A stretch of 64,000 nucleotides of DNA from assembly GCF_010731635.1 (NCBI RefSeq), contig NZ_AP022583.1, positions 3,534,001 through 3,598,000 on the forward strand, given 5' to 3'. Positions 53,289 through 59,759 of the stretch are shown here, piece by piece; position 1 is the first letter of the stretch; each line of letters starts with the position of its first letter. Source of the DNA: Mycobacterium noviomagense. GTDB lineage: Bacteria; Actinomycetota; Actinomycetes; Mycobacteriales; Mycobacteriaceae. The notes below the pieces were generated by a model that was given only the letters and a program-made list of their open reading frames with translations, was not told the origin of the DNA and ran no database searches. The position numbers and the translations under genes were made by a program.

Positions 53289-53654
53289 GTGACGTTCGTC
53301 TCCGAGGTGCTGGTTCACCTGTGCTCGGCGGGGGCGTGGTCGCGCGCCCAGGACTGCGGCTATGTTCGCTCCGACTCGCTATCGAGCGTCGGGTTCGTCC
53401 ATTTGTCGACGCCGCCGCAGGTTCACCTGCCGGCCAACCGGCTCTACCGCGGACGTGACGATCTGGTGTTGCTGCACATCGATCCCGCCCGGCTTGACTC
53501 ACCGCTGGTATGGGAACCGGGGGTGCCAACGGATCCGGAGTCGATGTTGTTCCCGCACCTGTATGGTCCGCTGCCGGTCACCGCTGTGACCCAGGTCGCC
53601 GCCTACCGGCCCGGTCCGGACGGCACCTTTCCGCCGCTCGAAGACCCGACGTAG
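53289..53654 (+). CDS. DUF952 protein
   Basis: A 121-residue DUF952 protein (Rv2705c type). Conserved segments are GFVHLSTPPQV, LLHIDPARL, WEP and FPHLYGPLPVTAV, which form a compact ADP-ribosyltransferase-like fold in the family. Start GTG 53289. The 3' end overlaps the remains of the convergent Rid gene. Confidence 0.85.
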   Translation: MTFVSEVLVHLCSAGAWSRAQDCGYVRSDSLSSVGFVHLSTPPQVHLPANRLYRGRDDLVLLHIDPARLDSPLVWEPGVPTDPESMLFPHLYGPLPVTAVTQVAAYRPGPDGTFPPLEDPT

Positions 53655-54025
53655 CGCTCCCCTTCACGGGCTTCTATTTCCACCAGCAACCCTGGGGCGA
53701 TGAGCGCCGAGACTTCGACCATGGTTGGCCGCTGGCCGGATCTTGCCGAAAACCTCGGCGTGTACCGCGGCGACATCCCGCCAACGCGAAATGTCGGTCA
53801 CGTAGATGCGGGTCCGCAGACGTCGGTCAACGCCGCGCGGGCCTCCCTGAGTGCAATTTCGATGCGGCGCAAGGCGTCTCGGGTCTGAGCGGAAATGTCG
53901 TCGGCCGGTCCGGCGCCGGTTGTGCCGGCGACGGCGACGTATGGGCCCACGCGCACCGCCCGGGAATAGCCGACGGTTGCTTCGAAAGCCGAGCCGGACG
54001 ACACCAGAATGCGGCTGGCTGACAT
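53603..54025 (-). pseudogene. Frameshifted Rid/YjgF/L-PSP family gene
   Basis: From ATG 54025 the N-terminus (MSASRILVSSGSAFEATVGYSRAV, VAGTTGAGPADD) is a normal RidA-family enamine/imine deaminase, as in Rv2704. After LTDV a 1-nt loss near 53815-53822 brings a stop at 53798. The next frame continues RTRIYVTDISRWRDVAAVHAEVFGKIRP, then a 1-nt gain near 53719-53731 returns the frame to TMVEVSALIAPGLLVEIEA. Two opposite shifts about 95 nt apart break the reading frame while sequence is otherwise kept. It may be a recent pseudogene or sequencing error. Confidence 0.8.
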
Positions 54026-54052
54026 GCGGTCACCGTAGTCAGCGCCGACGCG

Positions 54053-54073
54053 CTCAGTCGAGGTAGTCGCGCA
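54053..54073 (-). repeat. att-like copy of the sigA 3' end (left)
   Basis: A 21-nt sequence that matches the 3' end of sigA (58031-58051) at 20 of 21 bases and encodes the same RDYLD-stop. It continues into a weaker resemblance to the sigA tail to 54106. Interpreted as the left attachment site of the element between the two copies. Confidence 0.8.
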
Positions 54074-54215
54074 CTGTACGGGCTTCCACCGGGTGCTTGA
54101 GCTGCATAAACGCTGGTCCCGAAGGGCCTAGATGCGTCCAATATCCGTGACTGACGAGGTCGGGACCGCAGGGTAGCGTGGGCCTGACGGCTTGGTTGGG
54201 CTAGAAGGTTAAGCG

Positions 54216-54707
54216 TTGGTTGAGCAGTGGCAGATTCCGACCCAGGAACAGATTCTCGCGATGGGGCGTGCCGCCGGGATCGCGCAGCAGCAGGCCAACC
54301 AACTTCAGGTGAAGTCCATCGTGCTCGGCTACAACGTGGTGCCGACCGTTGGGGTTGAGGGAGGGAACCCCAAGAACGAGGTTGAAATCACTTTTCGGCT
54401 GTGGCGCTTCGACGAGAAACAACGGATCGACGCTGATGACGTGCCGTCGTACTCGTCGGTGGCTGAGGTGGAGGCGCAGTTGCAACGCCTCGCTGAGCTG
54501 CCGCGGTGGTGCCTCGATCTGGTGGGCAACTCCACCGCCCGCGTCGTGACCGAGACCGAGGGCGTCTTCACGGTCATCACCGACACACGCACCGGGCAAG
54601 ATTTCTACCTTCGGACGGTCGACATGGAGGCAATCACCGTATTGCCCATTCACGCTGAGGCCCCACCGGCGATTGGCAACTGGCGTCCGTGTAGGCCCGG
54701 CGAGTAG
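54216..54707 (+). CDS. Unknown protein of the sigA-linked element
   Basis: A 163-residue protein I do not recognise. It starts with a TTG at 54216 (preceded by AGAAGG); an internal ATG at 54261 is the alternative. The N-terminus is Gln-rich helical (RAAGIAQQQANQLQVKS), and the rest is beta-rich and acidic with FRLWRFDEKQRIDADDVPSY and a C-terminal region TDTRTGQDFYLRTVDMEA. No membrane segment. First of four same-direction genes in the element. Confidence 0.65.
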   Translation: MVEQWQIPTQEQILAMGRAAGIAQQQANQLQVKSIVLGYNVVPTVGVEGGNPKNEVEITFRLWRFDEKQRIDADDVPSYSSVAEVEAQLQRLAELPRWCLDLVGNSTARVVTETEGVFTVITDTRTGQDFYLRTVDMEAITVLPIHAEAPPAIGNWRPCRPGE

Positions 54708-54751
54708 CCGCACGGTTTTTCGCCTCCGCCGTTCCGGGTACCGTCAGCCTG

Positions 54752-55054
54752 GTGACCAATTTCGACGATCTCACCCAGTGGTCCTGGTTACAGGCCTACA
54801 GCCGATTCACGCTTCAAAATCAAGACGAGCGGCAACTCTACGAGGTCGCGGAGTCCGGCGCGGACCACACGGGCACTTGGCACTTCAAGCGGAACGAGGG
54901 CTTGTCGGTCGGGCCTCTGCTGCTTGGCTCGGTCATCAGCTACCGGCACCCCACCGCTGATGCGGCGAAGGCGGCGGCGGAGGAGGATTTCCGCCAGATC
55001 GTGCAGCTGGGGAAGTGGTTGAGGTACATGGTCACCCACAATCCGCCTGCTTAA
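54752..55054 (+). CDS. Small unknown protein of the sigA-linked element
   Basis: A 100-residue protein from GTG 54752, not recognised. It is aromatic-rich at the N-terminus (DLTQWSWLQAYSRFTLQ), with a WHFKRNEG motif and a C-terminal helix DAAKAAAEEDFRQIVQLGKWL. The HEXXH gene follows 6 nt later, so they are coupled. Confidence 0.65.
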   Translation: MTNFDDLTQWSWLQAYSRFTLQNQDERQLYEVAESGADHTGTWHFKRNEGLSVGPLLLGSVISYRHPTADAAKAAAEEDFRQIVQLGKWLRYMVTHNPPA

Positions 55055-55060
55055 GCGCCC

Positions 55061-55657
55061 ATGACCGAAGCCGACGATGAGCGGCTACTGACCGCCCACC
55101 ACGAAGCGGGCCATGCGGTCGCGGCGCTACTGCGCGGCGGTGGCGAGTTGAAGTCGATGACGATCGAGCCGACCGCCGACTACGCGGGCTGTACCTGGTC
55201 CCGCTCGAAGGCGGTGGATCGCGCGTTCATCGTCTACGCCGGTCCGTGGGCCGAGGCCCGCGTCCGTTGGAACGGGCCGACGCTCGACGACTTCGACGAG
55301 GACGGCCTCGACTTCAACGACCACCTGATGACGGCGTTCCTCCGCAACCCTGACGACCGTGCCGCCTATAAGGAGGCGGGCGGCGGCGGCGACCCGTTCC
55401 AGCACACGATCGGCCAAATGCTGCCATCCGCCGGGTCAGCCGACCGCGACAGCTTGGCCGATTTCCTGCGCCAGCAGGCGGCGCAGCTGGGCATCGATAT
55501 GGCCCACCCCGAGCAAGTATGGACCGCCGAGTTGGAGCGGGTCTGGCCCGCGATCTGTGAGGTTGCGGCGCTGCTGGTCGACGGCCAGGCCGTTGACCAC
55601 GACACGGTCCAGGCCGCGATCAAGCGGATGCACAGCGGCGCAACCGATTCGGCGTAG
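55061..55657 (+). CDS. HEXXH putative zinc metallopeptidase
   Basis: A 198-residue protein with H14-E15-A16-G17-H18, the HEXXH zinc motif in an M41-like HHEAGHAVAALLRGG context, near its N-terminus. The body is acidic and helical. Similar small HEAGH proteins occur in actinobacterial phages and integrative elements. No AAA+ domain. Substrate unknown. ATG 55061, six nucleotides after the previous gene. Confidence 0.75.
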   Translation: MTEADDERLLTAHHEAGHAVAALLRGGGELKSMTIEPTADYAGCTWSRSKAVDRAFIVYAGPWAEARVRWNGPTLDDFDEDGLDFNDHLMTAFLRNPDDRAAYKEAGGGGDPFQHTIGQMLPSAGSADRDSLADFLRQQAAQLGIDMAHPEQVWTAELERVWPAICEVAALLVDGQAVDHDTVQAAIKRMHSGATDSA

Positions 55658-55715
55658 CGCGCTGCGGCCCTTGCGTAGCATTGAGCCGCATGAGTAGCGA
55701 AACGGTAGCTACATC

Positions 55716-56606
55716 GTGAGCAAGCGCACCCGCCCGCGACGCCCACGTCCGACGTGCATGTTCTGCGGAAGTGATGCGCCGATGACGAAGGAACACATCT
55801 TCAGATCGTCGTGGAAACACAAAATCGATACCAATGAGCATCTCGTCAACTTGCCGTTTTTTGACCGGACCTTCACCAGATATGGGCTGGACGGTTCCCC
55901 GAAACAGACGAAGTCCGAAGACCTCTTTTCCGTCATCGTCAAACGCGTGTGCGCCCCATGCAACAACACCTGGATGAACGACCTCGATTCGGAGGTGGAG
56001 CCGTGGGTTTTCGATCCCGTCAACGACGACAATCGATGCGATCCCACGGAGTTTCGGCGCTGGGCAATTAAGGTTGCGCTACTGCGCTCGTATTACGAGA
56101 GTCCGCTTGCTGTCGAGCCTGCCGACCCGGCAAAGATTTACGCCGGTGAGGAAATAGCGGAGTGGCATGTGTTCATCGGCCGCACTCAACGTCCGGAACA
56201 CCGTCATTCATTCTGCGGGGTAGGCCCGCTCCGGCCAGATGGCGGAAGATTGTATGGAATCACGCAGGTCTCGTGGACGCTTGGCAACAGCTTGGTGACT
56301 GCGCTGAGGGTCGTTACCGGAGATGACGAACTGTCGCAGCTCCTCAACGAGTCATCACACGGTTGCCTCAAAAATTTCAAGCAGTACAACCGCTGGCGCG
56401 GCATCGAAGTCTTGGAGGTACTGCCTACGGCTAAGGAGATGCCGAGCGTACGGTCCCTACCAGCTTTGCCGATTCACGAAGTGCAACGGCTCGTTTGGCT
56501 CTTTACCACTCATCCCATTTCGCCGATCGCAAAGGAAGTGCGCGAGGCCTATGAGGGCATGAAGGGGATACTGGAAGACGCTGGCTTCCAATGGGTTGAC
56601 GCCTGA
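55716..56606 (+). CDS. HNH-like zinc-finger nuclease candidate
   Basis: A 296-residue protein with C14-x2-C17, then E26-H27, and C79-x2-C82-NN: the split zinc ribbon around an EH core seen in many HNH-type nucleases of the defence and mobile-element world. The C-terminal 200 residues are not recognised. Start GTG 55716. Base composition is clearly lower in GC than the flanks, a sign of recent transfer. A nuclease role is inferred from the zinc pattern only. Confidence 0.65.
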   Translation: MSKRTRPRRPRPTCMFCGSDAPMTKEHIFRSSWKHKIDTNEHLVNLPFFDRTFTRYGLDGSPKQTKSEDLFSVIVKRVCAPCNNTWMNDLDSEVEPWVFDPVNDDNRCDPTEFRRWAIKVALLRSYYESPLAVEPADPAKIYAGEEIAEWHVFIGRTQRPEHRHSFCGVGPLRPDGGRLYGITQVSWTLGNSLVTALRVVTGDDELSQLLNESSHGCLKNFKQYNRWRGIEVLEVLPTAKEMPSVRSLPALPIHEVQRLVWLFTTHPISPIAKEVREAYEGMKGILEDAGFQWVDA

Positions 56607-56621
56607 GGGCAGCACAGCGAT

Positions 56622-57152
56622 TCACCCACTCATAGCCTCATCAGCGTCGCGGATCAACTCGGCCCGTGAACGCCCCCGACCCGACGTGTCGGTGAAGTCG
56701 CCGTCGTCCACACCGATCCCCACCCGACGCAACCGCCATTGCTCCAACTCGTCATACGGCTCGTCGGCAACGTTGTCGTCGTCGGACCCAGACACAGGCG
56801 GCGGCAGCGGTACCGCCGCAGCTGCCGCGGTCAGTCCCTGCAAGCGGCTGATCTCGTTCTGCAAACGACGGGCCTGGTCGAGCGCCCGCAGATCGCCCTT
56901 GACCGCCTTGGCGTAGGCCACCCGGTACAGCGCCTCGTACCGCTCGACGGCGACGGCGTCGGCCTGGTTCGACATCAGCGACCGCTGACCGTCCGTCGCG
57001 GCCAGCTGGCGGCGGATTGCCAACTCGACACCGCGGCACGACAACCGGACCTGCGGGTGCCCGGCGATCGTCCGATACGGGGTCCCGGCCAGGAACAGCT
57101 GCCAGATCAGCGCGTCACGCGCCCGGCGCTGCTCGGCACTCACCCGTGGCAT
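56622..57152 (-). CDS. Phage terminase small subunit-like protein
   Basis: A 176-residue protein with an N-terminal helix-turn-helix (about 5-52, ARDALIWQLFLAGTPYRTIAGH), a central helical segment (YEALYRVAYAKAVKGDLRALDQARRLQNEISRLQG) and an acidic C-terminal region. This resembles terminase small subunits of mycobacterial prophages, which recognise phage DNA for packaging. ATG 57152. No large subunit is present, so it is a relic or a satellite gene. Confidence 0.65.
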   Translation of the reverse strand: MPRVSAEQRRARDALIWQLFLAGTPYRTIAGHPQVRLSCRGVELAIRRQLAATDGQRSLMSNQADAVAVERYEALYRVAYAKAVKGDLRALDQARRLQNEISRLQGLTAAAAAVPLPPPVSGSDDDNVADEPYDELEQWRLRRVGIGVDDGDFTDTSGRGRSRAELIRDADEAMSG

Positions 57153-57320
57153 GACGACCACGGTAGATCGACCGCCCGACGAAAGTAGGCACCGCGCGCC
57201 GCGGGTCGCCCGCCGATGTAGGCGGCCTACCCTCTGCCTACTTTGGGGGCTGGGCAGGAACCCGTTGAAACACAGGCGATTCCGGGCAGATCAGGGCCGA
57301 AATCGGCCGAAAATTTCTGC

Positions 57321-57949
57321 CTACGTGGCGCGGGGGTACACATACGCACCGGGCGACCTCCGGCGGACCATCCCTCGTCTGGACTTTGTGCCCCCTTTGT
57401 ATCGCTCGGCCAGGGCGACGCGCACCTGGCCGCGCACCAGGTCGAGGTCGTCGACCGTCAGCCCAGGACCTCCCCGGCGCGCATCCCGGTCTCGACCATC
57501 AGCCGCACGATGGCCTCGTCGCGGCGGTCGCGGAACTCCTTCCCGGCGCAGGCCTTGACGAGCGCGCGCACCTGGTCGTCGGTCAGCGAGTCGACCACCT
57601 TGACGTCGAGCTTGGGCGCTTTCAGGCCCAGCAGCGGATCGCGGTCGACCTCGGCCTCCTCCTCGCACCAGGCGCTGAAGCGGCGCACCCCCAGCTGGCG
57701 GGCACGCGCGGTCGCCGGTTCGGCCCCGCCTGCCAGCAGGTCGGCCACCCAGGCGCGCACCAGGTCGCGGTCGAACGCGGGCGTATGGCCGTTGACCTCG
57801 CACCAGTCGATGAACTGGTAGACCCCGGTCGTGTAGCTCTTGCGGGTCTCGCGGGACTTGTGGTCGGCGCGCAGCGATACCTCCCAGGACGGCAGCAGCG
57901 CGGCCAGGTCGAGGGTGTTGGGGCGTCGGCGGGAACGGGCGGTCGTCAT
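57321..57949 (-). pseudogene. Truncated tyrosine integrase
   Basis: From ATG 57949 the SAM-like core-binding domain (TRKSYTTGVYQFIDWCEVNG, RRFSAWCEEE) and the start of the catalytic domain (VETGMRAGEVLG, containing the first catalytic Arg) are clear. The frame ends at 57458 by loss of one G near 57459-57466; the next frame continues LTVDDLDLVRGQVRV then stops making sense. The HxxR and Tyr motifs are missing. Located 80 nt from the right att copy, as expected for the element's integrase. Confidence 0.85.
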
Positions 57950-58030
57950 GACCGATACCTTAACTAGAACCTTGTTGCTTATCCCACGTCAGCGCATAAC
58001 AGCTGATCAGAAACTGTTTTCAGGCGGGTC

Positions 58031-58051
58031 CTCAGTCCAGGTAGTCGCGCA
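58031..58051 (-). repeat. att-like copy at the sigA 3' end (right)
   Basis: The partner of 54053-54073; it contains the last codons and stop of sigA. One mismatch (58038) is synonymous for Leu. Confidence 0.8.
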
Positions 58052-59594
58052 GCACCTGGGAACGGCTGGGGTGACGCAGCTTTGACATCGTCTTGGACTC
58101 GATCTGGCGGATGCGTTCCCGCGTGACGCCGTAGACCTGACCGATCTCGTCAAGCGTTCGCGGTTGGCCATCGGTGAGCCCGAAGCGCAGCCGTACCACG
58201 CCGGCCTCGCGTTCGGAGAGCGTCTCCAACACCGACTGCAGCTGGTCCTGCAACAGCGTGAACGACACCGCGTCGACCGCAACCACCGCTTCGCTGTCTT
58301 CGATGAAGTCGCCCAGCTGGCTGTCGCCCTCGTCGCCGATCGTCTGATCCAACGAGATCGGCTCACGCGCATACTGCTGGATCTCCAGCACCTTTTCCGG
58401 CGTGATGTCCATCTCCTTGGCCAGCTCCTCAGGAGTGGGCTCGCGGCCCAGATCCTGCAGCAGCTCACGCTGGATGCGGCCCAGCTTGTTGATCACCTCG
58501 ACCATGTGCACCGGGATGCGGATGGTGCGTGCCTGGTCGGCCATGGCCCGAGTAATGGCCTGCCGGATCCACCAAGTCGCGTACGTAGAGAACTTGTAAC
58601 CCTTGGTGTAGTCGAACTTTTCGACCGCACGGATCAAACCCAGGTTGCCTTCCTGGATTAGGTCCAAAAACGCCATCCCGCGGCCGGTGTAGCGCTTGGC
58701 CAACGACACCACCAGACGCAAATTTGCTTCCAGCAGATGGTTTTTCGCGCGGTCGCCGTCGCGGCAGATCCACATCATGTCGCGGCGCTGGGCGGCTGGG
58801 AGCTTCTCGCCGCGCTCGGCCATTTCGGCCAGCAGCTGGCTGGCGTACAGGCCGGCCTCGATCCGCTTGGCCAGCTCGACCTCTTCCTCGGCGTTGAGCA
58901 GCGCGACCTTGCCGATCTGCTTGAGGTACGCGCGAACCGAGTCCGCCGATGCGGTGAGTTCGGCGTCTTTGCGCGCTTGGCGCAAGGCCTCAGACTCGTC
59001 TTCGTCCCATACGAAATCGCCTGAGGCCTTGTCTTTTTCGCTCGGCTCAGCGATCTCTTCGTCGTCCTCGACGGTTTCCTCGACGGCCACGGCGGGCGCG
59101 GCGGCGTCGGCTTGCTCGAGGTCGGGGTCGGCTTGCTCAAGCTCGGCATCATCGCTCTCGGGCGCTACGTCCTCGAGGTCATCGAGACTCAGGTCGGCGG
59201 GGTCGATATCGATGTCGTCCGGTTCGATATCGGCGTCCGGCTCACCGCCGAGATCCGCCTCGGCGTCGACGTCCTCGACCAGGGCGTCGGCGACGACCTC
59301 GACATCCTTTGGCGCCGTGGCTTTCTTCGCTCGGCTCCGCGACGGCTTCGCGGGGGCACTTTTGGCCGGAGCGTGGTCCTTCTTCGCGGTCTCGGCGCGT
59401 TTGGCGCTGGTCGCCTTCGTGGCACCTGGGGAGGTTTTGCTTGCGCGGGTGGTGCTCTTGGTGGCCTTCTTGGAAGAGGCGGACCCGTTGGTGGACTTTG
59501 CCGCCGATCGCTTTGCACCGGCCTTGGCGGGGGCCTTGGTGGCGGTGCGTTTCACCGGCTCATCGGTTGACGGGCTTGCTTTGGTCGCTGCCAC
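58032..59594 (-). CDS. sigA: Principal RNA polymerase sigma factor SigA
   Basis: A 520-residue housekeeping sigma factor. A long Ala/Lys/Thr-rich then Asp/Glu-rich arm (about 1-200) precedes region 1.2 ([13 protein letters not shown]), regions 2.1-2.4 ([17 protein letters not shown]), 3, and 4.2 ([16 protein letters not shown]). The start is GTG 59594, giving [15 protein letters not shown] after the initiator, as in M. tuberculosis; the open frame extends eight codons more. Its last five codons and stop lie inside the att-like repeat; the encoded C-terminus ([10 protein letters not shown]) is normal. Confidence 0.97.
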
Positions 59595-59759
59595 GTACAC
59601 CCCTTCGGTCGGACTCACTTCCGGTGCGCTTGGGCGTACTTGACCGAAAGTTTCGGTTATGTCGAATGTCGGCGTGGATACTCGCCGCTATCGGTTCGGG
59701 CGGCCGCCGCTGACCATTGTAACGACAGACGGGGTACAGCCTGGCTGAGCGGGCAAATT

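Follow-up and report, generated by a model that had tools for sequence, protein, structure and literature searches.

Phage 21 and the element e14 reportedly integrate at icd of Escherichia coli with a tyrosine integrase, and the copy of the 3′ gene end that they carry is said to rebuild this essential-type host gene. The locus described here shares with them the tyrosine integrase and an element-borne copy of a host gene's 3′ end that would rebuild the gene, but it differs in its target (the principal sigma-factor gene), its actinobacterial hosts and its copied core of 18 nt.

For mycobacteria, PMC9262239 places the Int-Y phages of M. smegmatis exclusively in tRNA genes. In PMC10654092, 7 of 23 Int-Y sites of M. 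abscessus lie outside tRNA and tmRNA genes, and the examples shown lie in tRNA genes, whereas the present elements lie at sigA; the main text of that article contains no word beginning with ‘sigma’. Two further sources report 43.4% of islands in protein-coding sequences (PMC12424338) and a pSLS integrase subfamily that does not use tRNA genes (PMC3218068). No source naming sigA or hrdB as an attachment site was found in the article texts searched. This kind of integration is already known, and it is the sigma-gene target and its breadth that appear to be undescribed in the searchable literature.

Here, we analyzed a 64-kb stretch of DNA (the window) with a 4-kb segment between sigA and a ridA-like relic. 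From sequence comparison, we consider it very probable that this segment is what remains of an integrative phage-type element, that the element's attP, which included an 18-nt copy of the sigA end, recombined with the 3′ end of sigA, and that its integrase belongs to a clade targeting the principal sigma-factor gene.

A direct repeat of the sigA end bounds the segment

The features of the locus, in the direction of sigA transcription, are as follows.

58032..59618, minus strand: sigA, principal sigma factor (Sigma70 regions 1.2–4 by Pfam)
58034..58051, minus strand: att core on the sigA side, from the repeat comparison; last ~18 coding nt of sigA plus the first stop base
57950..58033, minus strand: element arm from core to integrase start; resembles the arm in genome G017; hairpin absent (z 0.9)
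57458..57949, minus strand: tyrosine integrase remnant, N-terminal 163 aa; phrog_1 (E 1.6e-17) and PF00589 (E 4.4e-05, under the curated cut-off)
56622..57161, minus strand: phrog_645-family gene (E 2e-10; family labelled ‘Rnase E’)
55716..56606, plus strand: open frame; HNH_5 weak, under cut-off; phrog_38451 (E 1.6e-05)
55061..55657, plus strand: open frame (cargo); Peptidase_M50B match over cut-off
54752..55054, plus strand: open frame (cargo); no family match
54216..54707, plus strand: open frame (cargo); no family match
54074..54160, minus strand: element arm at the distal core; near-identical in G017
54056..54073, minus strand: att core on the distal side, from the repeat comparison; also matched by the distal-junction pattern (below)
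53600..54025 (about), minus strand: ridA/Rv2704-like relic, the gene after sigA at empty sites (62% over 146 columns)

Read on the sigA strand, the sigA end (58031–58051) is TGCGCGACTACCTGGACTGAG. As the earlier note had claimed, 20 of these 21 nt recur at 54053–54073, and the sole difference is a synonymous CTG/CTC leucine codon. The 18-nt core, TGCGCGACTACCTSGACT, matches the window exactly at two places, and no further copy of the 21-nt repeat within 5 mismatches is present elsewhere in the 64 kb. The direct repeat of the gene end bounds an insert of 3,978 nt between sigA and the ridA relic, confirming the extent first proposed. An in-frame stop interrupts the relic after 75 codons and gives it the look of a pseudogene.

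The second copy could in principle be a chance match or a codon-constrained likeness to the sigA end. Allowing up to 3 mismatches, the core matched the window 3 times against 0.19 expected (mean of shuffles), with two of the copies exact, and the repeat recurs at the same place in other species. These shuffles and this recurrence ruled out a chance repeat, whose probability we put at next to nothing.

A second possibility is that the distal copy arose by duplication of part of sigA, with the intervening genes arriving otherwise. The codons preceding the distal core in the window do somewhat resemble the sigA end, as such a duplication would predict. However, DNA identity between the two 21-nt copies stops immediately beyond the repeat on both sides, the distal core of other elements is bare and preceded by an element arm unlike sigA, and the core is also present in phages. 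We ruled out a tail duplication on these grounds and regard it as extremely improbable.

Under the preferred reading of site-specific integration, a tyrosine integrase would have joined an attP containing the 18-nt copy with the 3′ end of sigA. A crossover within the core would keep the last sigA codons, with the stop codon and everything downstream supplied by the element, and the original sigA end would have been shifted to the far side, ahead of ridA.

Gene content of the segment

The integrase relic that had been noticed in the segment was borne out for the N-terminal part. This remnant shares 65–72% identity with ten sigA-located integrases of other genomes, and an intact relative aligns to it with its first 155 residues at 71%. 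For the 149 residues that remain, the catalytic half of that relative, 54000–58100 gave nothing better than E 6.7. With that half of its integrase gone, this copy would no longer be capable of excision unaided. Across 16 aligned relatives the R, HxxR and Y positions are conserved, which we take to be the functional residues of tyrosine integrases.

The gene at 56622–57161 had been described as terminase-like. This label was unsupported and we dropped it: the gene matches phrog_645, and no Pfam family scores above its cut-off. Relatives of the gene occur in four other elements (L069, L070, L071 and L123), and a search of 5.8 billion sequences, of limited sensitivity, returned five other protein relatives. 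The four cargo frames lie on the strand opposite to sigA and the integrase remnant, and the window element contains no major capsid gene.

Occupied and empty sites in the genus

We searched 198 genomes of the genus, in all of which the sigA end region was matched, weakly in some. The integrase remnant matched at E 1e-10 in 51 of the 198, the window's genome counted. In 12 other genomes the best integrase match reached at least 65% identity, and in 11 of these it lay directly after sigA (G166, G096, G119, G164, G062, G027, G101, G124, G144, G171 and G099, the last broken). The twelfth (G170) carries a 67%-identical integrase that follows a COX4_pro gene instead; closely related integrases can therefore differ in target. 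A second core lies downstream in 10 of the 11 sigA loci, while the eleventh (G164) ends at a contig edge; ridA follows the second core in 7 of the 10 two-core loci within the stretches examined.

A core preceded by AG served as a distal-junction pattern. Among 396 genomes of the genus it matched 21, once per genome, and its reversed control matched none. Nineteen matches could be traced to a co-oriented sigA with its own core at a distance of 822–15,793 bp, and tracing of the other two (G164 and G301) stopped at contig ends. The G166 element, with a different base before the core, escapes the pattern.

Empty sites were recognized in 18 of 49 stretches examined, where ridA begins 35–328 bp past the sigA stop without a second core. 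Most of the first 29 stretches extended 1.5 kb past sigA, and most of the 20 others about 4.4 kb. Among the remaining stretches, ridA came later in 8, did not appear within the stretch in 22, and a second core was present in G058; the 22 include the known elements of G017, G164, G099 and G096. None of the 18 empty-site genomes is among the 21 pattern-positive ones. In one empty site (G185), the sigA tail runs into sequence that aligns, with gaps, to the window DNA past the distal core. The comparison of mycobacteria with and without the insertion that the earlier note had called for gave two cores at occupied sites and one at empty sites, and uninterrupted relatives carrying both copies were not seen, as all 18 direct sigA–ridA sites are single-core.

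The integrase clade beyond the genus

Across the order, the distal-junction pattern was positive in 11 of 397 genomes, 6 in the genus and 5 outside. Tracing of the latter led to sigA with both cores in G451 and G564; for G704, G646 and G624 a link to sigA was not established in the stretches examined.

A broader scan, seeded with 16 sigA-site integrases, returned 50 named genome loci. The end of a sigma gene lies 7–264 bp before the integrase match in 45 of the 50, which, given this seeding, is not an unbiased frequency; the query loci account for 9 of the 50, and sigma adjacency among the others is 36/41. The exceptions are L145, with a sigma tail only, and L142, L168, L170 and L172, with neither. 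A second core fell within the DNA examined at 20 of the 50 loci. Sigma-adjacent mycobacterial hosts include Mycobacterium gordonae, M. helveticum, M. intermedium, M. bohemicum, Mycolicibacterium sphagni and M. parafortuitum, joined by members of Nocardia, Rhodococcus, Streptomyces, Wenjunlia, Pseudonocardia, Saccharomonospora, Actinokineospora, Geodermatophilus and Modestobacter. The clade adjoins sigA or hrdB in several actinobacterial families.

A tree of 39 integrases accounts for the three target labels with 2 changes, where shuffling gives a mean of 10.9. The two outside-genus sigA-site rows cluster with those of phages, and several of the deep forks in this tree are weak. In seven loci (L044, L045, L046, L048, L049, L053 and L056) a sister integrase adjoins the 3′ end of a riboflavin-synthase-type gene, an identity based on Pfam applied to one of them. 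Other genes upstream of sister integrases are Nramp (L047), phosphoglucomutase (L059) and COX4_pro (L042). When four sister elements (three ribE loci and one COX4 locus) were inspected for a second copy of the gene end, L074 had one of 15 nt, and L079, L080 and L072 had none within the stretches examined.

Phages carrying the core

Among 19 viral-contig loci, the core lies 103–153 bp before the integrase gene in 11, two of them beside host sigma sequence, and 784 bp before it in L186. No core was found near the integrase gene in L191 and L194, and five of the 19 loci start less than 50 bp from it, leaving no room to judge. In the isolated Streptomyces phage Kromp (MH744420), 97 bp separate the core from the annotated tyrosine integrase that follows it; over 149 residues this integrase shares 56% identity with the window remnant. 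A query with the 51-nt attP region of Kromp found one other phage record, with 20 nt inside a gene. Kromp resembles the present elements in its related integrase and in a sigA/hrdB-type core before the integrase gene, but it is a 58-kb Streptomyces phage whose insertion place is a prediction from sequence, with no attachment site annotated in the stretch examined. The pairing of an integrase with a sigA-tail attP, which the earlier note had proposed to look for, is accordingly present in Kromp and the 11 viral-contig loci.

These loci also bear on a third alternative, in which the region after sigA is an insertion hot spot that collects unrelated DNA and the integrase is a passenger. Cargo varies strongly between sigA-site elements, as a hot spot would have it; G017, which shares both arms with the window, has other cargo and lacks an integrase match, and G058 likewise carries both cores without such a match. 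In contrast, the integrase occupies the same place and orientation after sigA or hrdB in 45 of the 50 named loci, cores lie at both ends, and in phages the attP adjoins the integrase gene. We judge a passive hot spot to be very unlikely.

Integrase clade, cores and phage attP together support the reading of the sigA 3′ end as the probable attB of a tyrosine recombinase. The clade appears to target the actinobacterial principal sigma-factor gene and to serve both phages and small elements with capsid-type genes. The housekeeping sigma-factor gene would then be a new attachment site, with a core nearly base-identical across several actinobacterial families and used by integrases, phages and small capsid-coding elements. 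This would explain the variable sigA–ridA region and predict where Kromp integrates, the core preceded by AG offers a simple finder for such elements, and the site could give laboratory actinobacteria one shared place for vector integration.

Stop codons, arms and hairpins

The two ends of an element share the last sigma codons and can differ in the stop codon. L069 and L126 pair a sigA-side TAG with a distal TGA, and the order is reversed in L062, L064 and L067. This pattern fits the proposal that integration restores the sigA coding sequence. The base before the core was C or T in the sigA ends seen and G in most distal copies.

The motif GCACARCGCT, picked post hoc after inspection of the arms, occurs with at most 1 mismatch in 9 of 18 integrase-side arms, always at +64 (1.3% in shuffles), and in 10 of 18 other arms, 8 at −23 and 2 at −62 (0.6% in shuffles). 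The repeat is a putative arm site of the integrase. The window's own arms contain no copy.

Of 55 leaders from elements, viral contigs and Kromp, 37 have a strong hairpin after the core, against 6 of 44 element-free sites, a control drawn entirely from Mycobacterium and set against leaders from many genera and phages. Hairpins also lie past the distal core (15/20). Among 14 Mycobacterium element leaders (L130–L141, L147 and L156), z was below −2 in L133 and L134 only. As hairpins are weak in 12 of these 14 and strong in many members outside, a replaced terminator for sigA/hrdB is offered only as a suggestion, plausible outside Mycobacterium. A terminator swap found no support in the window, where the hairpin is absent. 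In L134, L146, L171, L179 and other leaders, very long hairpins lie between the sigma stop and the integrase gene; their sequences differ, yet they are well paired, with z down to −10.

More speculatively, and in our estimate rather unlikely, a phylum-wide clade dedicated to the principal sigma-factor gene, with its co-oriented integrase gene just downstream and, outside mycobacteria, often behind a strong hairpin, could use sigA/hrdB termination and read-through to couple integrase expression and mobility to the transcription state of the host.

Kind of element

In PMC10654092, a candidate mycobacterial PICI is defined by an integrase plus a major capsid gene. Both intact mycobacterial members tested here have capsid-type genes and a major capsid gene in that sense. 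L073, with 9.2 kb between its cores, encodes an AAA/primase-type protein, a weakly WhiB-like protein, two capsid-type proteins and a prohead protease; L062 also contains a capsid gene. Genes of these types are all absent from the window copy. Being small and combining an integrase with a capsid gene, L073 is like the candidate PICIs and phiRv1/phiRv2 as presented there. Judged by gene content, elements of the L073/L062 type would fit a resemblance to phiRv/PICI satellites.

Three further small sigA-site elements of 12.7–14.7 kb (L064, L066 and L067) carry genes of 1,221–1,547 aa. The one at L064:8574–12239 is tape-measure-like (phrog_1942, E 1.2e-261), and the large genes of L066 and L067 are tied to this one by BLAST. 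Possible defence cargo at the sigA site comprises L068:8001–9818 and L063:8398–9477, a SIR2_2 protein and a C5-cytosine methylase.
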